Below the pieces are notes generated by a model that worked only from the letters and a program-made list of their open reading frames with translations, searched no databases and had not been told where the DNA came from. From a virus: 39,595 nucleotides of DNA. The stretch spans positions 1-39,595 of the IMG/VR virus record IMGVR_UViG_3300003885_000015; one strand, 5' to 3'. Made by a program: the position numbers and the translations under genes. Positions 3,010 through 36,503 of the stretch are shown in pieces. Numbering within the stretch: position 1 is the stretch's first letter; the number at the start of each line of letters is the position of its first letter.

Positions 3010-4316
3010 GTTCGCACGCACGGTTAAGTCCGTCGAACCTTCGTTGGCCTAAATGCCCCGGGTCTATTGAAGCTGAGTTGCTCTATCCTGATATCGCTGG
3101 TGCCGCTGCGATTGATGGTACAGGTACACATTTATTGCTTGAATTGTCTTTATTAAAAGGTGTAAGTGCAGACCATTTTGATCGAGATATCATTGGTGCG
3201 AACCATGAAGATCAACCGAACGGCTGGTTAGTTGACGCTGAACGCTGTAAACGCGCTCAAATGTGTCTTGATTATATTGGTCGTCGAGTTGCTGAGCTTA
3301 AAGATCAATTCATTGGTGCAGAAGTTACTGTCGAGGCTGAATCAAAATCTGACCCTGGTGGTGCGTTTGGTCGAACTGACTGGAACGGGACATCAGATGT
3401 AACAATCATTGTTCGTCATAAAATGACTGGTGCTTGTTTGTTTATTGAGGTGATCGACTATAAAGATGGTCGAGGTTACGTTCAGATTAAAGACAACACA
3501 CAGTTAATCAGTTATTTATTTGGTCGAATGAGGGAATACATTGCCAGTGGTCCTGATCGTGTCAGACCGTTTATTGGTGAGAAATTACACGGTTGTCGAA
3601 TGACAATTGTTCAACCGAAAACAAACCCGGCAGTTCGATACGTATGTTCAACTCGACCAGATGATAATTTCTCAGTTGAACATGTGATTGAAAAAGCGAT
3701 TGAACTTAGTGAGGCCGCTGATAAAACCGATGAAGTTAATGCATCAAGGACTGCAGGCAAGCATTGTCAGTGGTGTAAGGCTAATCCCAAACGTGGTGGT
3801 CACTGTGACACGCAAATAAAGGAGAGTATAAACGTGGTAAACGATAATCAAATTCTTGATCTAAACTCACTCAGTAAAGTCATTACTGAGTCAAGCAATA
3901 TGACCAATGAAGAACTAAGCAGGATTGCTTACGCTGAGGTAGGTATACAAGCTGCGTTTGATGTAGTGAAGTCTGAAATTGAAAAACGAATAATCGCTGG
4001 CCAAGTTGTCGATGGTTACGCAATGAATCCGGGCAGAGGCTCAAACAAGTGGGCGCATGATAATGAAACCATCGCTAAACGTCTGAAAGGTCGTCGGTTA
4101 AAATTGGATGAAGTTTTCCCTAAGAAATTAATTACACCAGCAGCGGCGCTTAAACTTAATTCATTAAGTGACGAACAGAAAGAACGGATCAAAAAAGATT
4201 TAATTGTTTTTGTTGCAGGGAAATTAACATTACAGAAAGTTGCACATGAACCAGTTGAAAAATCTGCTGATCAATTGTTTCCTACAATCCCACTTGACAC
4301 ACCTACATTTCTATAA
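3006..4316 (+). CDS. DUF2800 PD-(D/E)XK nuclease, Cas4/RecB-like
   Basis: 436 residues. The opening RLSPSNLRWPKCPGS is the DUF2800 signature. A PD-(D/E)XK core is visible: D131 in TSDVTI and D151-x-K153 in EVIDYKDG. Four cysteines, one N-terminal (C17) and three C-terminal (C254, C257, C267 in CQWC...GGHC), have the spacing of the iron-sulphur cluster in Cas4/AddB-type nucleases. The C-terminal 160 residues continue the DUF2800 domain. It probably processes DNA ends during recombination or replication, alongside the neighbouring ssDNA-binding protein; the DUF2800-DUF2815-polymerase-VRR-NUC-helicase order is common in phages. It starts at ATGA overlapping the previous stop. The protein ends PTFL, resembling the Ser-Phe-Leu ends of other replication proteins here. 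Confidence 0.88.
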   Translation: MSSHARLSPSNLRWPKCPGSIEAELLYPDIAGAAAIDGTGTHLLLELSLLKGVSADHFDRDIIGANHEDQPNGWLVDAERCKRAQMCLDYIGRRVAELKDQFIGAEVTVEAESKSDPGGAFGRTDWNGTSDVTIIVRHKMTGACLFIEVIDYKDGRGYVQIKDNTQLISYLFGRMREYIASGPDRVRPFIGEKLHGCRMTIVQPKTNPAVRYVCSTRPDDNFSVEHVIEKAIELSEAADKTDEVNASRTAGKHCQWCKANPKRGGHCDTQIKESINVVNDNQILDLNSLSKVITESSNMTNEELSRIAYAEVGIQAAFDVVKSEIEKRIIAGQVVDGYAMNPGRGSNKWAHDNETIAKRLKGRRLKLDEVFPKKLITPAAALKLNSLSDEQKERIKKDLIVFVAGKLTLQKVAHEPVEKSADQLFPTIPLDTPTFL

Positions 4317-4326
4317 GGATTAAATC

Positions 4327-5190
4327 ATGCCATTAGTTAAAGGTATTTTAAGTTTCCCTGCATTGTTTACACCTAAAACCGCGAAAGGCGCAACCGATCC
4401 AAAGTACGGCGTTGTTGTACTGTTACCACCGAATGACCCACAGTTACCTGACTTGTTAGCGTTGGTGGAGGCGGCAAAACTCGACGCATTTCCCAGTGGT
4501 TACACTGGCACCGATGAATGTGTTAAAGCATATGATATTAAGTATGCAGGCAAGGACTACTACGACCCTCGTTTTTCTGGTTGGTACGCATTCAGTTCAT
4601 CATCTAAACAGGATGATAAACCAGCCGTGGTTGATATGAACAGGCAACCAGTTATTGATCAATCGTTGGTTTATTCTGGTTGTATCGCTTACGTCAATGC
4701 TGCGATCAGTGGTTATAACAAAGGCAAAGGTGGTGTTGGTGGTTGGCTTAATGGTGTGATGGTGACGGACGAAGTTCCGTTAATGGGTAGACTCGACGGC
4801 AAACCAACGGTCGATCAAATGTTTGTGAATATCGGTGGTAATGCAGGTGTGGTTGCACCAGCTTTAGCACCGTATCTACCACCAGCTTCAGCACCAGTTC
4901 CACCACCAGCTTTAGCACCAATTCCACCACCGCATCTGTCACCAGCTTTTGTACCAGTTGCACCACCAGCTTTAGCACCACCAGTTCCAGTTGCACCACC
5001 AGTCGCACCACCAGTTCCAGTTCCACCACCGCATCTGTCACCAGCTTTAGCACCAGCTTTAGCACCAGTTCAATTAGTCATGACAGCAGCAGCAAATGGT
5101 GTGACTTATGAACAGTACATGGCGACCGCTGGTTGGACTGATCAGATGTTAATTGATCAAGGTTTGGCGATACTACCCTCGTTCGCGTAA
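4327..5190 (+). CDS. DUF2815 family single-stranded DNA-binding protein with extended Pro-rich tail
   Basis: 287 residues. Residues 1 to about 175 match the DUF2815 family, phage ssDNA-binding proteins of OB fold: it begins LVKGILSFPALFTPK and includes YDPRFSGWYAFS and GWLNGVMV. About 75 residues of ALAP/PVPPP/HLSP repeats follow, then a small C-terminal module with TYEQYMATAGWTDQMLIDQG. That module recurs as a tail domain in phage proteins. The protein ends AILPSFA. Role: coat ssDNA and recruit partners. SD AAGGAT lies 8 nt before the ATG. The repeat linker is far longer than needed by the family and is a site of length instability. No iron or zinc site is seen. Confidence 0.85.
   Translation: MPLVKGILSFPALFTPKTAKGATDPKYGVVVLLPPNDPQLPDLLALVEAAKLDAFPSGYTGTDECVKAYDIKYAGKDYYDPRFSGWYAFSSSSKQDDKPAVVDMNRQPVIDQSLVYSGCIAYVNAAISGYNKGKGGVGGWLNGVMVTDEVPLMGRLDGKPTVDQMFVNIGGNAGVVAPALAPYLPPASAPVPPPALAPIPPPHLSPAFVPVAPPALAPPVPVAPPVAPPVPVPPPHLSPALAPALAPVQLVMTAAANGVTYEQYMATAGWTDQMLIDQGLAILPSFA
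4851..5066 (+). repeat. Proline-rich coding repeats in the ssDNA-binding protein
   Basis: Imperfect iterations of CCACCAGCTTTAGCACCA- and CCACCGCATCTGTCACCA-type units encode PPALAP and PPHLSP. Several units are identical over more than 15 bp, indicating internal duplication. Confidence 0.85.
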
Positions 5191-5216
5191 ATGAGCGTCT
5201 TGAAACTGAATTAGTT

Positions 5217-5248
5217 AAGTATCACTCTAGGGAATGAGGGTGATACTT
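5217..5248 (+). promoter_or_regulatory. Leader hairpin with GGA loop upstream of the DNA polymerase gene
   Basis: AAGTATCAC (5217-5225) pairs with GTGATACTT (5240-5248). Three further pairs (5226-5228 with 5237-5239, one of them G-U) extend the stem to 12 bp and leave an 8-nt loop AGGGAATG. GGA in a hairpin loop beside a ribosome-binding region is the layout of CsrA targets, and this operon encodes a CsrA-like protein. It is not a good intrinsic terminator because no T-run follows. The structure is seen; the regulatory role is inference. Confidence 0.5.
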
Positions 5249-5268
5249 TGTTTAAGGGCAACATTAAA

Positions 5269-7275
5269 ATGAACGACTTCCTCTATAACGTCACAACCGG
5301 TGATATTGTTTACGATTGCGAGACTTACCCGAACGCTTTCACCATTGGTTTTCATCACAGGAAAACCGGGGAAAAGTGGTTGTTTGAAATCAGTTCAAGA
5401 AAAGATCAGACGAAAGAATTTTGTTATTTCCTTGAACTGCTTAATTTCAATAGTTGCACAATAGTGGGTTTTAATAATATTGGTTTCGATTACCCTATTA
5501 TTCATCGAATCTATGCTAATCGGTATAACCTCTACACATTTGAAGACATCTACCTTCACTCGCAACAAATAATCAATGCTTACGGAAATGCAAAATTTGG
5601 CTTGATGGTTTATCAAGATGACTGGATTGTTAATCAACTCGATTTATTTAAAATCCACCACTTCGATAACAAGTCGAAATCTACCAGCTTGAAAGTGCTT
5701 GAGTTCAATATGCGCTTAGATGATGTTGAAGACCTACCTTTCGATGTTGGCACTATTCTCACCAACGAACAAATTGATGCACTGATTCATTACATGTGGC
5801 ACGACATCTATGCAACCGATCAATTCATGAATCGTACATTGTCTAAAATCAATCTAAGAAAACGACTGTCAGAAACTTTCGATATCGACATGATGAACAT
5901 GAGTGATATTAAGATGGGTGAGACTATTCTTGTTTCTGAAATGGAAAAGAACGGCATCAGTTGCTATGACCGGGTAGGTCGAAAGAAAGTAAAACGACAA
6001 ACAAAAAGAAAAACAATTGACCTCAATGAAGTTATTTTTCCTTATATAAATTTTGAAAATTTTGAGTTCCAACGAGTTAAAACTTATTTCGAGTCAAGAG
6101 TTATTACAGAAACAAAAGGTGTGTTCAACGATCTTATTGCGGAAGTTGAAGGACTGGAGTATAAGTTCGGTACTGGTGGTTTGCACATGTCTACCGAATC
6201 AAAAACCGTAGTCAGTGACGACCATAGTCAGTTGATTGATGTTGATGTGAAAAGCTTTTACCCGCTAATGGGTATCAAAAATAAATTATTCCCGGCACAT
6301 CTTGGTGTTGCTTTCTGTGACGCTTATGAAGGTGTTTATATCACTCGAACAACTTTTGAAAAAGGCACCTCAGAAAACGAAGCATTCAAGCTTGCACTTG
6401 TTGGTGCGTATGGTGGGAGTAATAACGAGTACTCACCTTTCCTTGATTCTAAGTACACAATGGCAATCACCATCAACGGGCAATTATTGCTGTGCATGTT
6501 GGTAGAGCAATTAATTAAAATCCCCGAATTGAAAATGATCCAAGCCAACACCGATGGTGTGACATTCCTTTGCCCTCGTAATTACATCCCTTATTCAAGG
6601 AAGGTTTGCAAGTGGTGGGAACAAGCGACCATGCTTGAACTTGAAGAACAATTTTATGATCGTATGTTTATTCGTGACGTGAATAATTACATTGCTGAAA
6701 AAGAAGATAAGGGGTTAAAACGAATTGGTGTGTACGCTCATGTAACAGCCGATCAGAACCCCGGTTCAAGAGAATTACCACACCATAAAGACTGGTCAGC
6801 ACGTATAGTTCCTTTGGCGGCTGAGGCTGTGTTAGTGAGAGGTGAAGACGCTGAACAATTCATTCGCAACTATAAAGACGATTATGATTTTCTCTTAAGA
6901 ACAAAAGTACCAAGAAGCAGTCAACTCGAACTTGCTGGTGAAAGAGTGAGTAACACAATTCGATATTACATGAGTGTGAACGGCGGAATGCTTGAGAAAG
7001 TAATGCCGTCAAAAGGTGAAAATGGAGAATATAAACGGGCAAACAAATTAACAGATGGATATTTCAATGAAATCATGAATGAAATAGGACAAGGTGTTTG
7101 GGACGAACGGATTCACACCAAGAATAAATCGACCTACAGCATAAGACGTTCTGGTATTCACGCCGGTTGTAAAGTGTCAGTGTGTAACAACATCGAGCAT
7201 TATGATAGATCAGTATTAGATTATCAGTGGTACATTAATGAAGTGAATAAGATAACTAAGCCAATTATGGAGTAA
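5269..7275 (+). CDS. DNA polymerase, family B-like, with 3'-5' exonuclease
   Basis: 668 residues from the ATG at 5269. The exonuclease domain shows Exo I D-x-E in VYDCETYPN (D16/E18), Exo II in GFNNIGFDYPIIH (D74) and Exo III in YMWHDIYATD (D179). Polymerase motifs are A: DVDVKSFYPLM (D326), B: KLALVGAYGG (from K374) and C: NTDGVTF (D429). These match the compact family B-type phage replicases with NTDG in motif C. It would be the replicative enzyme of this phage. I chose the ATG with AAGGG 10 nt upstream; a TTG at 5248 would add 7 residues and is preceded by GAGGG, but that TTG is buried in the leader hairpin. GGAGTAACAACG at its 3' end is the ribosome-binding site of the next gene. Confidence 0.88.
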   Translation: MNDFLYNVTTGDIVYDCETYPNAFTIGFHHRKTGEKWLFEISSRKDQTKEFCYFLELLNFNSCTIVGFNNIGFDYPIIHRIYANRYNLYTFEDIYLHSQQIINAYGNAKFGLMVYQDDWIVNQLDLFKIHHFDNKSKSTSLKVLEFNMRLDDVEDLPFDVGTILTNEQIDALIHYMWHDIYATDQFMNRTLSKINLRKRLSETFDIDMMNMSDIKMGETILVSEMEKNGISCYDRVGRKKVKRQTKRKTIDLNEVIFPYINFENFEFQRVKTYFESRVITETKGVFNDLIAEVEGLEYKFGTGGLHMSTESKTVVSDDHSQLIDVDVKSFYPLMGIKNKLFPAHLGVAFCDAYEGVYITRTTFEKGTSENEAFKLALVGAYGGSNNEYSPFLDSKYTMAITINGQLLLCMLVEQLIKIPELKMIQANTDGVTFLCPRNYIPYSRKVCKWWEQATMLELEEQFYDRMFIRDVNNYIAEKEDKGLKRIGVYAHVTADQNPGSRELPHHKDWSARIVPLAAEAVLVRGEDAEQFIRNYKDDYDFLLRTKVPRSSQLELAGERVSNTIRYYMSVNGGMLEKVMPSKGENGEYKRANKLTDGYFNEIMNEIGQGVWDERIHTKNKSTYSIRRSGIHAGCKVSVCNNIEHYDRSVLDYQWYINEVNKITKPIME

Positions 7276-7280
7276 CAACG

Positions 7281-7883
7281 ATGATCGAAGTTTTAGACCA
7301 CGGGCATGTGGGTTTCATTGAGTCTTTCGGCGACGACTCAACAGTTTTACAAATTGCAAAAAATATTATTGGTAAGGGTGATGATCTCAATGATCAAAAG
7401 TGTATTGATTTTTTAATTAAAACAGAACGGTCATCACTGCTCAATCCTGTGATGTTCAACTTTGAAATCAAAGCACCTTTATTTGTTCTTGAAAGATGGT
7501 ATGAATATTCTTACAAGAACAAAATGAACGATAAAATAACAGAAGAATTCTATACACCTTCTGAGTTTTCATTTGACGGTTTGATTGATTTATCCAAAGA
7601 CTCAGGAAAAATGAAAATCAGTCAAATAAGAAGTTTGATATTCAGAAGCAATCAAACCTCATACACCCATTACAGTGATTTAATTAATTTTGGTATACCT
7701 AATCACTTAGCTGAAATGATATTACCAAGTTCACACTATAAAACAGTGAATACAATAATATCACTGCCTAAATTGTTAAATTTTAAAGACATTGAAAACT
7801 CACACGAGTGCAGCACTTATAGTGATGCAGTTTGTGAACTGATAAAAGACATCATACCGCTGACTTTAAAATCTATACGTTAA
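7281..7883 (+). CDS. ThyX-like protein with a degenerate signature motif
   Basis: 200 residues. The overall order resembles flavin-dependent thymidylate synthase: an N-terminal strand (VLDHGHVGFIESFGDDSTVLQIAK), LIKTERSSLLNPVMFNFEIKAPLFVLER, then LPSSHYKTVNTIISLPKLLNF and a C-terminal helix. ThyX has RHRxxSxNExSxR after the FEIKAP-type stretch; here the same place reads RWYEYSYKNKMN, losing the second Arg, the His and the Asn-Glu. The late LR...AQ.EIR segment is also altered (ENSHECSTYSDAV). It therefore looks like a diverged ThyX that either changed chemistry (another pyrimidine modification) or became non-catalytic. It sits between the polymerase and a nuclease. The family call rests on pattern and needs a structure-based comparison. 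Confidence 0.55.
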   Translation: MIEVLDHGHVGFIESFGDDSTVLQIAKNIIGKGDDLNDQKCIDFLIKTERSSLLNPVMFNFEIKAPLFVLERWYEYSYKNKMNDKITEEFYTPSEFSFDGLIDLSKDSGKMKISQIRSLIFRSNQTSYTHYSDLINFGIPNHLAEMILPSSHYKTVNTIISLPKLLNFKDIENSHECSTYSDAVCELIKDIIPLTLKSIR

Positions 7884-7963: not shown

Positions 7964-8251
7964 ATGGGAGTAAGAGAAAGGAAAGTCGAACATTATCTAC
8001 GCGACAGGGTGAAAGAAATCGGTGGACTTTCTCGCAAGTGGGGTAAGTCTAACGTAGCTGGTGTACCTGATCAGTTGGTTTTTCTACGTGGCAGCATCTA
8101 CCTAGTTGAAATAAAAACAACCGATGGTGTATTAGAACCAGAACAAAAACGCGAACACGCTCGCATGGCCGATGTACTGATAGAAGTTTACACACTGTAC
8201 GGTCATCGTGATATTGATGAATGGGTAAAGAAAATAAATGAACGAACTTAA
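7964..8251 (+). CDS. VRR-NUC domain nuclease
   Basis: 95 residues from ATG 7964. It matches the small phage VRR-NUC (PD-(D/E)XK) nucleases: REKVExYL-like opening (RERKVEHYLRD), GGLSRKWGKS, GVPDQLVFL with the catalytic Asp, and YLVEIKTTDG with Glu-x-Lys, then the helix EQKREHARM. Stand-alone VRR-NUC proteins act as structure-specific nucleases, often next to helicases, as here: its 3' end overlaps the helicase start by 14 bp. I prefer the 7964 start because AAAAGGA lies 6 nt upstream. An in-frame ATG at 7889 would add 25 residues, mostly hydrophobic (AISVLVTIMFYFLV), making a membrane-anchored form. That start lacks a clear SD but lies only 5 nt after the previous gene. Confidence 0.88.
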   Translation: MGVRERKVEHYLRDRVKEIGGLSRKWGKSNVAGVPDQLVFLRGSIYLVEIKTTDGVLEPEQKREHARMADVLIEVYTLYGHRDIDEWVKKINERT

Positions 8252-10676
8252 ACCAAGTGATTTATTTGCTTATCAACGTGAGTCGATCATACACCAACTG
8301 AATCACGTTGATTCGGTACTATGGCTTGGTATGGGGCTTGGTAAAACACCGATTACGTTAACTACTATCGTCGATAGAATGAGAGCTGGTCATGTCAAAA
8401 AGGTATTGATTTTCGGCACACTGAGAATCATTCAAAGTGTGTGGCGTAAAGAGGCTTTGAAATGGACTCACACCAGTCATTTAAAATTCAGCATCATTAA
8501 TGGGACTAAGCAGGCAAGGACTAAATCATTGTTTGAGGAAGCTGATATTTACATGATCAACTACGACAACATGAACTGGTTAGCTGAAACTCTGGATCAT
8601 TATTATTTTTCACAAGATTTAGAAAACCCGTTTCAAATGATTGTCTATGATGAAATTACAAGATTGAAAAAAAGCACCACGTTAAGAATGGCCGGTGGTA
8701 ATCGGGATCGCATAGACAGACGTGGTGAAGTGCATAAGATTAAAGTCACTGGGTGGAACAAGTTCGTTAACTTATTCAAATATCGAGCTGGTCTGACAGG
8801 CACACCAGCATCGAATGGTTACATTGATCTACATGGTCAGTACTTGGTGATTGACGGTGGTGAACGCCTTGGTAAATTTATCACGACTTACAGACAGGAG
8901 TATTTCACTAAAAGTTATGACGGTTGGGGCTACACACCAACACAACTTGGTAAAGCCGCTATTGTAAGTAAGATATCAGACATTACGCTCAAAATGGATA
9001 GTAAAGATTATCTTGATTTACCAGCCGTCAAAGTTACAAACCATTTAGTCGACCTGCCTAAAAATGTGTGGAAATCTTATAAAGAATTAGAAAAAACTTT
9101 GTTCACTCAACTGGAGTCAGGTGTTGATATTGAGCTGTCAAATAAAACCAGTTTATCAAATAAAATATTACAGTTTTGTAATGGCAGTCCTTACATTAAC
9201 CCAATGGAACCTGAGTTCGATGTTATGCACGATGCCAAACTGGATGAGTTAATGAACATCGTTACTGAGGCTGCTGGTTCACCTGTGTTATGCAGTTATT
9301 CGTTTAAAGCAGATGCACAGCGAATCATGAAAAAAATGAAAAAATTTAAACCGGTGAACTTAACTGAAAGTCCGTCAAGGCTCACAGGTAGCATCATCGA
9401 CAAATGGAACAAAGGTGAAATAAAATTATTAATAGGTCATCCTGCATGCTTGCACCCTGACACCCTGCTATTGACCGAACGGCGTGGGTGGATTAAACTC
9501 ATTGACATCAGTGTAACTGAAAAAGTATTTGACGGTGTTGATTTTGTATCTCACGGTGGTTGTTTGTATTCAGGCTATAAAGAAGTAAATAATCTTTTTG
9601 GTGTAACTATGACACACAACCATAGATTACTAATATCAGGTAAATGGGTGGAATCATGTAATGTTGAAAATTGTGAAAATATTAAAAAAGAAGCATTATA
9701 CAAATACAAAGGCAATGACAAATACCTTAGCAAAATGTTTACATTGCGGGGCAATATCAGAAATCCTCAAACAGAATGTAACAAAACACAACCGTTTAAA
9801 AAGAGAATATTGTCAACACTGTATCAGAGAAAATTATCACAACATGACAAACACTCGAATATGGAGAATATGGCAAGGAATGATTCGTCGTTCAAAAAAC
9901 CCATTAGACAAAAATTATGCAGGTCGTGGGATAAGCGTGTGCGAAAGCTGGTTGGATTTCAAAACGTTTTACACCGATATGCACAAAACATACAGAAGCA
10001 ATTTGACTATCGAAAGAATAGATGTGAACAAGGGTTATTCAAAAGAAAACTGTACGTGGGTCACAATGCTTATGCAACAGTCGAACAAAAGAACAACACG
10101 ATTTTTAATCTACAAAGGTTCAAAAATACATCTAGCAGGGTTATGCCGTTTAACAGGGTTGAGCAAAACGAAATTAAAAATGAGATTAGACCGGGGGATG
10201 ACAGCGGATCAAGCGGTGACAGACGCAATGAACTCACCTTACGGAAAAAGTACGAACCCGAAAAACAAGGCAAAAAGAGAGTTAAGAAAAACCATGTCTA
10301 TGACTTAGTTGATTGTGGTCCACGTCACCGATTCTTAATCAAAAATGCAAAAGGTGAAGTGTTCACATCACATAACTCAATGGGCCATGGGATTGATGGT
10401 CTACAGTACTCAGGCAGTATTGTTGTTTGGTTTGGTTTGAACTGGTCACTTGAGTTGTACGAACAAATGAACGGACGCATCAATCGACTTGGGCAAACCA
10501 AACCTGTATCAATCATTCGTATACTTTGCAGAGACACAATTGACCTTATTGTTGCAATCAGACTTGACGGCAAGTACAACACTCAAGAAGGTTTAAAAGC
10601 AGAAGTTGACAAGTATAGAGGCGTTCAACCAGTTCAATCATTTTTAACAGCTCAGCCAGTTGTTAGTTTTTTATAA
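8238..10676 (+). CDS. SNF2-type phage helicase interrupted by an intein
   Basis: 812 residues; about 502 after intein removal. Helicase motifs: I GMGLGKT (31-37), II YDEITRLK (D138/E139), III LTGTP (186-190), and VI GRINRLGQ (746-753). Motif V reads HPA...SMGHGIDGLQ across the insertion: residues 404-713 are an intein placed exactly inside the conserved HPAS-GHG motif, a catalytic-site position typical of inteins. Superfamily 2 SNF2-like helicases with this ending (WFGLNWSLELYEQ) are common in phage replication operons beside VRR-NUC. The C-terminus reads QPVQSFLTAQPVVSFL, two copies of the short motif also seen in the primase linker. The start overlaps the nuclease gene. Splicing itself is inferred from intact junction residues. 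Confidence 0.9.
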   Translation: MNELKPSDLFAYQRESIIHQLNHVDSVLWLGMGLGKTPITLTTIVDRMRAGHVKKVLIFGTLRIIQSVWRKEALKWTHTSHLKFSIINGTKQARTKSLFEEADIYMINYDNMNWLAETLDHYYFSQDLENPFQMIVYDEITRLKKSTTLRMAGGNRDRIDRRGEVHKIKVTGWNKFVNLFKYRAGLTGTPASNGYIDLHGQYLVIDGGERLGKFITTYRQEYFTKSYDGWGYTPTQLGKAAIVSKISDITLKMDSKDYLDLPAVKVTNHLVDLPKNVWKSYKELEKTLFTQLESGVDIELSNKTSLSNKILQFCNGSPYINPMEPEFDVMHDAKLDELMNIVTEAAGSPVLCSYSFKADAQRIMKKMKKFKPVNLTESPSRLTGSIIDKWNKGEIKLLIGHPACLHPDTLLLTERRGWIKLIDISVTEKVFDGVDFVSHGGCLYSGYKEVNNLFGVTMTHNHRLLISGKWVESCNVENCENIKKEALYKYKGNDKYLSKMFTLRGNIRNPQTECNKTQPFKKRILSTLYQRKLSQHDKHSNMENMARNDSSFKKPIRQKLCRSWDKRVRKLVGFQNVLHRYAQNIQKQFDYRKNRCEQGLFKRKLYVGHNAYATVEQKNNTIFNLQRFKNTSSRVMPFNRVEQNEIKNEIRPGDDSGSSGDRRNELTLRKKYEPEKQGKKRVKKNHVYDLVDCGPRHRFLIKNAKGEVFTSHNSMGHGIDGLQYSGSIVVWFGLNWSLELYEQMNGRINRLGQTKPVSIIRILCRDTIDLIVAIRLDGKYNTQEGLKAEVDKYRGVQPVQSFLTAQPVVSFL
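9447..10376 (+). other. Intein coding segment within the helicase gene
   Basis: 310 codons. Block A starts at Cys1 (CLHPDTLLLTERRGW) and block B is GVTMTHNHRLLI with the Thr-x-x-His. Block F is HVYDLVDCGPRHRFLIK, and block G ends TSHN followed by Ser as the first C-extein residue. Cys1, the penultimate His, the terminal Asn and the Ser+1 are all present, so class 1 splicing looks possible. The roughly 200 codons between B and F are open in this frame but read as a Lys/Arg-rich sequence with no endonuclease motif. The endonuclease is instead encoded in the +1 frame over the same DNA. Removing 9447-10376 joins HPA to SMGHG in frame. Confidence 0.9.
9715..10308 (+). CDS. HNH-type homing endonuclease encoded out of frame inside the intein
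   Basis: 197 residues from ATG 9715, with AAAGG just upstream. An in-frame ATG at 9661 would give 215 residues but has a weaker SD. The frame is +1 to the helicase/intein frame. It starts with a two-CxxC zinc region (CLHC, CQHC). The family core follows: IWRIWQGMIRRSKNP, NYAGRGISVCESW, LTIERIDVNKGY, ENCTWVT. It ends with a DNA-binding tail (LAGLCRLTGLSKTKLKMRLDRGM) like the helix-turn-helix tails of phage HNH homing enzymes. Role: cut intein-less helicase alleles to spread the intein. Because it is not fused to the intein it would have to be made as a separate protein from an internal start. Its recognisable motifs all lie in this frame, and none in the helicase frame. Confidence 0.85.
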   Translation: MTNTLAKCLHCGAISEILKQNVTKHNRLKREYCQHCIRENYHNMTNTRIWRIWQGMIRRSKNPLDKNYAGRGISVCESWLDFKTFYTDMHKTYRSNLTIERIDVNKGYSKENCTWVTMLMQQSNKRTTRFLIYKGSKIHLAGLCRLTGLSKTKLKMRLDRGMTADQAVTDAMNSPYGKSTNPKNKAKRELRKTMSMT

Positions 10677-10691
10677 AAAGGAATTTGCATC

Positions 10692-10997
10692 ATGTTAGTA
10701 CTAAAAAGGAAAAAAGGTCAACGAATTGTCATGGTCAACAATGGTGCGTTGAGTTACGTAAAACTGCTTAGTTTCAGGGAAGGAGACAGTGCAGTAATCT
10801 CAATTAAGACAAATGGGAATGAAACTTACAAAACGCATCAGGTTAAACTCCGCGAAAATTTATTAATCCACGATAGTATTACCATTTACATTGTCGACAT
10901 ATTTAAGTTTTTTGTAAAAGTCGGCATTGATGCACCGAAGAGTGTCATCGTGGATCGTGAAGAAATACACTTGAAAAAAATAAAAAGTGTTAATTAA
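10692..10997 (+). CDS. CsrA/RsmA-like RNA-binding protein, apparently a two-unit fusion
   Basis: 101 residues, against about 60 for ordinary CsrA. The N-terminus MLVLKRKKGQRIVM matches CsrA strand 1, and the C-terminus VKVGIDAPKSVIVDREEIHL matches strands 3-5, including VxREEI with the RNA-contacting Arg. Between them lies extra sequence that itself resembles CsrA strands 2-3 (LSYVKLLSFREGDSAVISI) and a second strand 1-2 (ENLLIHDSITIYIVDI). So the chain can be read as two CsrA units, the first lacking its end and the second lacking its start. CsrA works as a dimer whose RNA site combines strand 1 of one subunit with strand 5 of the other, so this could fold as a one-chain dimer with one complete site. 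SD AAGGAA lies 7 nt before the ATG. It is the last gene of the replication operon. Confidence 0.7.
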   Translation: MLVLKRKKGQRIVMVNNGALSYVKLLSFREGDSAVISIKTNGNETYKTHQVKLRENLLIHDSITIYIVDIFKFFVKVGIDAPKSVIVDREEIHLKKIKSVN

Positions 10998-35885: not shown

Positions 35886-36503
35886 ATGACAACAAACAAC
35901 ACAGGTTACAAACTGAATATTAAACGCGGTTGGATTATCCCTGATAATTGCACGTTGGTAAAAGGTACTATTACCCCACCATTCAGCAGCATCGGCAACC
36001 ACGCTATTATCAGCAGTGATTGCATCATTGGCAGTCATAGCCGGATAAACAACAATGTGACAATCGACGTTAATTGCAATATTAAGAAAAATACTATCAT
36101 TGGTAACGATTGTTCCATCGCTGATGGCGCTCACCTTGGTAACAATGTTGTTATCGGTGACGATTGTTTACTTGGTGATTTCACGCAAGGTTTTAATGTT
36201 GTTTTTGGTGATGATTGTATTATTGAGAATGACAACGAGATAAAACACCAAGTAATCGGGATAAGGCTGTTTGGTGATGATAATTACTATTACGAGAGTG
36301 AGTTTAAAAAGTATACAAATCATTTAGACAGTAACAAAATTAAACGCGTGGAGTTTGGCAAGCAAGACCAACGCAGCGCATATAGCGTAACTACATTCAA
36401 CCACAAAGGGGCAATTGATAAACAGATAGCATTTGTTAAAAAAGATCAATTACTCGGTTTCGTCGTTGGTTATAACCAAGCAGTGTTTGATCATAAGCAG
36501 TAA
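35886..36503 (+). CDS. Hexapeptide-repeat (left-handed beta-helix) protein
   Basis: 205 residues. From residue 35 to about 120 the sequence follows a six-residue period with I/L/V at the inward position: IGSHSR, INNNVT, IDVNCN, IKKNTI, IGNDCS, LGNNVV, IGDDCL. That is the left-handed beta-helix pattern, as in hexapeptide transferases. It lacks the acetyl-CoA site residues I would expect. The N-terminus GWIIPDNCTLVKGTITPPFSSIG is paralogous to that of the truncated protein at 39187. The C-terminal 75 residues are a separate domain with FNHKGAIDKQIAFVKKDQLLGFVVGY. The start has AGGAG 13 nt upstream (wide spacing). It is the first gene of the early block; the function is unknown. Confidence 0.7.
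   Translation: MTTNNTGYKLNIKRGWIIPDNCTLVKGTITPPFSSIGNHAIISSDCIIGSHSRINNNVTIDVNCNIKKNTIIGNDCSIADGAHLGNNVVIGDDCLLGDFTQGFNVVFGDDCIIENDNEIKHQVIGIRLFGDDNYYYESEFKKYTNHLDSNKIKRVEFGKQDQRSAYSVTTFNHKGAIDKQIAFVKKDQLLGFVVGYNQAVFDHKQ

Follow-up and report, generated by a model that had tools for sequence, protein, structure and literature searches.

A 39,595-nt IMG/VR phage record (IMGVR_UViG_3300003885_000015, positions 1 to 39,595; hereafter the window) very probably carries a mobile intein of class-1 type, with the gene for its homing endonuclease overprinted in another frame of the same DNA; splicing, expression, cleavage and homing are predicted from sequence and structural models. A helicase ORF on the plus strand (8238-10676, 812 aa) is interrupted at 9447-10376 by 310 codons, which begin with Cys, contain TxxH and the block F motif VYDLVDCGPRHRF, and end in SHN/S, so that a helicase of 502 aa would remain once spliced (812-310). 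As the initial annotation had described, an HNH ORF occupies the +1 frame of this intein (Table 1); its TAG stop codon at 10306-10308 lies within block F. In one reading of this DNA, the helicase frame would be translated across the whole element, and the two halves of the splicing (Hint) domain would fold with a long disordered linker between them and release the intein, leaving the 502-aa helicase. In a second reading, ribosomes would initiate at an internal ATG (9661) behind a Shine-Dalgarno (SD)-like site and produce a 215-aa HNH protein, which could cut intein-free helicase genes and so lead to homing. Selection would then keep the HNH protein functional and remove every stop from the intein frame, with the linker otherwise free.

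Table 1. Features of the intein-containing helicase gene and the overlapping HNH ORF (positions in the window).
Feature	Position	Strand	Evidence
N-extein, SNF2/SF2-type phage helicase, ends ..IGHPA	8238..9446	+	PF00176 7e-10; phrog_62 3e-103
Intein N-terminal splicing (Hint) half, Cys1 (block A) and TxxH (block B)	9447..9746	+	Invariant residues, AlphaFold, Foldseek
Block B TxxH motif, T56-H59	9612..9623	+	Sequence motif
SD-like GGGTGGAA, 7 nt 5' of ATG 9661	9646..9653	+	Anti-SD duplex energy
HNH endonuclease ORF (215 aa), +1 to the intein frame, between blocks B and F	9661..10308	+	phrog_3377 2.6e-42; phrog_374 4e-38
Four-Cys region, zinc-finger-like (C26, C29, C51, C54)	9736..9822	+	Invariant or nearly so in 51 sequences
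Intein-frame linker, residues 101-275, dual-coding with HNH	9747..10271	+	Stop-free; predicted disordered
HNH-like catalytic motif region (LTIER..Y..NC.W......N.R)	10003..10092	+	I-HmuI 1u3e alignment, E=0.032
Intein C-terminal splicing half, block F VYDLVDCGPRHRF and block G SHN	10296..10376	+	Invariant D286, G291, F296, H309, N310
C-extein, begins with Ser+1 (SMGHG), helicase C-terminal part	10377..10676	+	Helicase_C 0.0011; phrog_11354 1e-21

The putative start of the HNH ORF at ATG 9661 is retained throughout the helicase family, in which NTG stands 214 nt after block A in 28 of 28 members (27 ATG, one GTG); 5' of it lies a site resembling GGTGGAGG, which pairs strongly with the anti-SD. 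The duplex energy with the anti-SD reaches a local minimum directly 5' of this start, with a mean of -7.0 kcal/mol in 28 relatives versus -2.1 at 3,598 other ATGs; part of the signal is supplied by the intein codons W-V-E-A, which counts against reading it as a start signal. The region of the AlphaFold HNH model that begins at the Met of 9661 has a pLDDT of ~97, and Met19 (9715), where the ORF had originally been started, is not conserved among relatives, so that the earlier start is replaced by 9661. Given the conserved NTG and the SD-like site, internal initiation appears to be the best account of HNH expression in the helicase family, in support of the earlier proposal that the endonuclease is made separately from an internal start. 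It is reasonable to infer that a separate HNH protein would escape the need to be spliced. For the family with HNH at +2 (see below), the initiation signal is less clear, as the HNH start codon there derives from the codon of an invariant Trp of the intein, with the SD-like signal 3' of this start. Programmed ribosomal frameshifting from the intein N-half, which would yield an extein-intein-HNH fusion with no internal initiation, could accommodate the +2 (equivalent to -1) family, where the presumed start region of the HNH includes a GGAGG-like site that is followed by no ideal start codon, and also the several loci in which the HNH frame is open for some codons 5' of the start. We consider it unlikely, because the invariable position of NTG behind an SD-like site in the helicase family and the stops in the HNH frame of three loci (L002, L214 and L226), the nearest 4 codons 5' of the start, argue against it, and non-systematic inspection brought up no conserved slippery site and no clear frameshift signal.

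The residue set of class 1 inteins is complete in the window (C1, T56xxH59, H309-N310 and Ser+1); C1, T56, H59, H309 and N310 are invariant in 44-46 relatives, and the +1 residue is either Ser or Cys among them. AlphaFold predicted intein residues 1-100 and 280-310 with pLDDT values mostly >95, and Foldseek searches with this Hint model recovered mini-inteins, all 50 matches listed being inteins or Hint-like proteins (Hedgehog, BIL, Vint). Profile matches to the NEQ068 and Mtu RecA inteins likewise place it within the Hint fold. The intein splits the conserved helicase motif GHPA/SMGHG precisely, and this motif is uninterrupted in 21 intein-free helicase relatives, which represent empty sites. 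The Helicase_C match of the C-extein lies under the Pfam cut-off. On these sequence features and models, 9447-10376 is a class-1-type intein, which would splice autocatalytically. It differs from canonical large inteins, which carry the endonuclease in the intein frame. The possibility that the insert stays unspliced as a tolerated loop in the helicase was suggested by the ShiLan methylase insertion, for which such retention has been proposed; the ShiLan element also comprises an out-of-frame HNH and lacks a splicing domain (PMC11855218), and its relative Pacc40 has an HNH of the same family. This explanation is very improbable here, as the Hint domain is complete, confidently modelled and matched by inteins in the PDB, and the insertion lies within a conserved helicase motif.

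Directly 3' of the helicase gene, the window encodes a CsrA-family regulator (10692-10997, plus strand; PF02599, 1.9e-13, residues 52-95) with extra residues between its CsrA-like N-terminus and the conserved part. The window furthermore encodes a ThyX-like protein (7281-7883, plus strand; PF02511, 1.6e-8), a class 3 lipase-like protein, here in a phage genome (28963-29808, minus strand; PF01764, 1.6e-31), and a hexapeptide-repeat protein of the left-handed beta-helix type (35886-36503, plus strand; PF00132, 6.5e-16).

A Pfam search with the HNH protein of the window returned no match, and its assignment to the HNH family by sequence and fold draws on the phrog_3377 match, the I-HmuI alignment and the structural similarity of its AlphaFold model (mean pLDDT 90.6) to the HNH nuclease PacI, which was the best match in VIA-align with a Z of 6.8, under the level of a clear match. 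Foldseek found no significant PDB match for the same model. R119, Y126, N130 and N142 are conserved in 51 sequences, and H60, Y86 and N130 are further conserved candidates for catalysis. The nearly invariant Arg119 aligns with the I-HmuI His, the canonical catalytic residue of the motif, and because of this replacement the term HNH-type endonuclease names a fold and sequence family here, with catalysis unproven. The active site of PacI is likewise unusual (Tyr/Arg). The ORF is thus best described as encoding a putative HNH-type endonuclease, which would cleave the intein-free allele. Divergence of the HNH by codon position follows p3>p1>p2, as expected for a protein that is under purifying selection. 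That the ORF is an inactive relic, open by chance, has little to recommend it: the HNH core has been deleted and the intein kept in some relatives (L039, L225 and HNH-less inteins), but this divergence pattern and the invariance of zinc-type Cys and catalytic-region residues in 51 sequences make the idea most improbable.

The intein frame contains no stop across the HNH ORF, and the third frame has 41. The view that the open intein frame is not due to chance was upheld by synonymous shuffling of the HNH ORF, which yielded 12.4 expected intein-frame stops and no stop-free sequence in 100,000 shuffles (P<=1e-5); under the codon usage of the helicase itself, the expectation rose to 22.3 stops, with a minimum of 9 in 20,000 trials. 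Eight free-standing HNH relatives contain 14-35 stops in the same register, and such controls contain 5-18 in a second register. Among the relatives described below, shuffling predicted 610 stops for +1 elements (77 elements) and 165 for +2 elements (45 elements), and none was observed. In +1 elements, an HNH codon ending in T before AA, AG or GA creates an intein-frame stop, and T is absent from synonymous third positions in all 2773 such contexts (0 of 1125 in the helicase family alone) versus 2587 of 8544 (30%) elsewhere.

The initial annotation had also concluded that both frames are under selection. This stands for the HNH protein and for the avoidance of third bases that would create intein stops, and is refined for the intein-frame linker, which seems to be constrained only to stay open. 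At matched divergence, 4-fold sites of the HNH and of the Hint N-half differed to a comparable extent (0.68 vs 0.72, 0.64 vs 0.64 and 0.62 vs 0.61 in three comparisons), which leaves the need to stay open as the main constraint on the linker. The AlphaFold prediction for linker residues 101 to 270, largely without structure and with pLDDT of about 45 (about 40-53 per block), agrees with this. Strong amino-acid selection on the linker is not supported by the 4-fold divergence; intein-frame similarity shows a mild excess (mean z 2.1), leaving room for weak constraint.

Other inteins with the same overlap, for which the initial annotation had recommended a search, were surveyed by three scans of viral contigs using intein-frame alignments, together with earlier loci. 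Elements were counted if both Hint halves were in phase, and were made non-redundant at 90% nucleotide identity (n=142); because the scans were seeded with out-of-frame examples, the sample represents this Hint subfamily and not all inteins. The HNH is at +1 in 84 of these phage inteins, at +2 in 51 and in frame in none, with no HNH detected by profile in the remaining 7. The two-frame layout is thus present in 135 non-redundant elements, i.e. the window plus at least 134 others. The intein frame is stop-free in all 142 elements, and the third frame contains 6-47 stops. In 16 further loci without a C-half match, the HNH is out of frame throughout (15 at +1, one at +2), so that no in-frame HNH, the arrangement that would have spoken against the overlap, was found among the 142 elements or these loci. 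The only rows in phase 0 stemmed from spurious far-upstream N matches with 25 or more stops.

The hosts of these elements are helicases and DNA polymerases with many insertion sites. Six divergent helicase relatives share 57-67% amino acid identity in the HNH and retain site, phase and start, and in L026 the intein occupies another helicase site (FC/NGSPY numbering: ..CLQF/CNGSP..) with the HNH again at +1. DNA polymerase inteins carry the HNH at +1 in APSE-1, Shewanella SFCi1, Caulobacter GB2A and Gardnerella AB1, and at +2 in Pseudomonas MR14, EBPR siphovirus 2 and Salmonella Ent1. In one locus (L027, about 4995-6460), the Walker A region of the helicase (GLGK/TPIT) holds a different intein, with a frameshift 3' of it. 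Assembly or sequencing indels that displaced an in-frame HNH, a concern raised at the outset, do occur, or else true frameshifts do, as the N and C halves are out of phase in L085, L106 and L223; as the explanation of the layout, such artefacts are refuted by the recurrence of one phase in 84 non-redundant +1 elements, including the complete isolate genomes of APSE-1, SFCi1 and GB2A, and the intein frame remains stop-free. Phage group I introns commonly carry HNH genes, and an intron with a fortuitously open intein frame is just as implausible, given that no Rfam match was found at E<=1 across 9000-10900, intein motifs flank the HNH on both sides and the frame is kept open in every full-length in-phase relative.

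Several patterns fit the gain, decay and loss expected if the overprinted inteins pass through a homing cycle. Extein and intein trees contain strongly supported splits that conflict, and in the pair L205/L206 the exteins are 50% identical, the Hint domains 85% and the HNH 79%. In L216 (614-1513) versus L218 (2501-3400) and in L214 versus L226, the first part of the HNH shares 50-65% nucleotide identity and the flanks mostly 80-98%, which is consistent with exchange of an N-terminal HNH module that has closed neither frame. Most of the HNH is lost in L039 and L225 with the intein frame intact, and several HNH-less inteins retain HNH remnants. A prophage copy from an Arsenophonus symbiont (L250, 2501-3418) is an apparent pseudogene; stops interrupt its HNH frame, and another follows directly after the intein. 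In the HNH tree, free-standing genes fall between the main groups, with modest support at some nodes, a topology compatible with capture of HNH genes into Hint domains at least twice, perhaps four times. We consider it likely that overprinted inteins form a widespread class of phage mobile elements with at least two, and probably more, separate HNH captures, two phases, an independent endonuclease with an internal start and a stop-free disordered linker.

If this is true, two selfish activities share one segment of DNA and not one protein, and the splicing domain would shield the nuclease gene against loss by the host. A frameshift in the nuclease gene would also break the host helicase or polymerase, a natural counterpart of the sequence entanglement engineered for stability in synthetic biology (compare PMC12455656). 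Phage inteins at present recorded as lacking an endonuclease may in many cases be mobile, and annotation confined to the host frame would miss a class of homing nucleases, including those of well-studied Salmonella and Escherichia phages. With their stop avoidance and free linker, these elements would furthermore allow dual coding to be studied cleanly in a natural setting. No account of inteins with an overprinted endonuclease was found in the open literature; either Gosselin et al. (2025, bioRxiv 10.1101/2025.01.02.630785), which concerns 'non-canonical architecture' in actinobacteriophage inteins and is cited in PMC11855218, or Gorbalenya (1998, 'Non-canonical inteins') may cover part of this, and priority is uncertain.

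The closest published case is that of the ShiLan domain and Pacc40 gp60, insertions in mycobacteriophage methylases with an out-of-frame HNH, for which no intein or intron splicing domain was found and retention was argued (PMC11855218). They resemble the element described here in that the insert is open in the host frame and sporadically distributed, and the Pacc40 HNH belongs to the same family (39% identity). In contrast, the elements described here have a complete Hint intein, other host genes, two phases and many insertion sites. The cyanophage CL131 dCTP deaminase intein, for which self-excision was shown, likewise combines Hint and HNH in a phage nucleotide-metabolism gene, but its HintN and HNH_3 lie in one frame, the usual layout (PMC6293099). 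The same +1 architecture as in the window is found in the DNA polymerase, instead of a helicase, of APSE-1 (P45/P46, NC_000935), where GenBank annotates the P46 HNH nested in P45; the APSE-2 record (NC_011551) lists P45 alone, and one paper on APSE makes no mention of an intein. The polymerase intein of Salmonella phage Ent1 (Jerseyvirus) also hides an HNH, here in the +2 phase, and its record mentions only an intein 'encoding splicing domains'. Likewise, none of the 14 rows listed for +2 HNH hidden in polymerase inteins of Jerseyvirus-like isolates (H161-H174) has an endonuclease annotation. Escherichia phage Pubbukkers is a further isolate whose polymerase intein hides an HNH. Annotation pipelines mostly miss out-of-frame HNH within inteins, and an HNH >=60% identical to the Ent1 type is present in 163 isolate-phage records.
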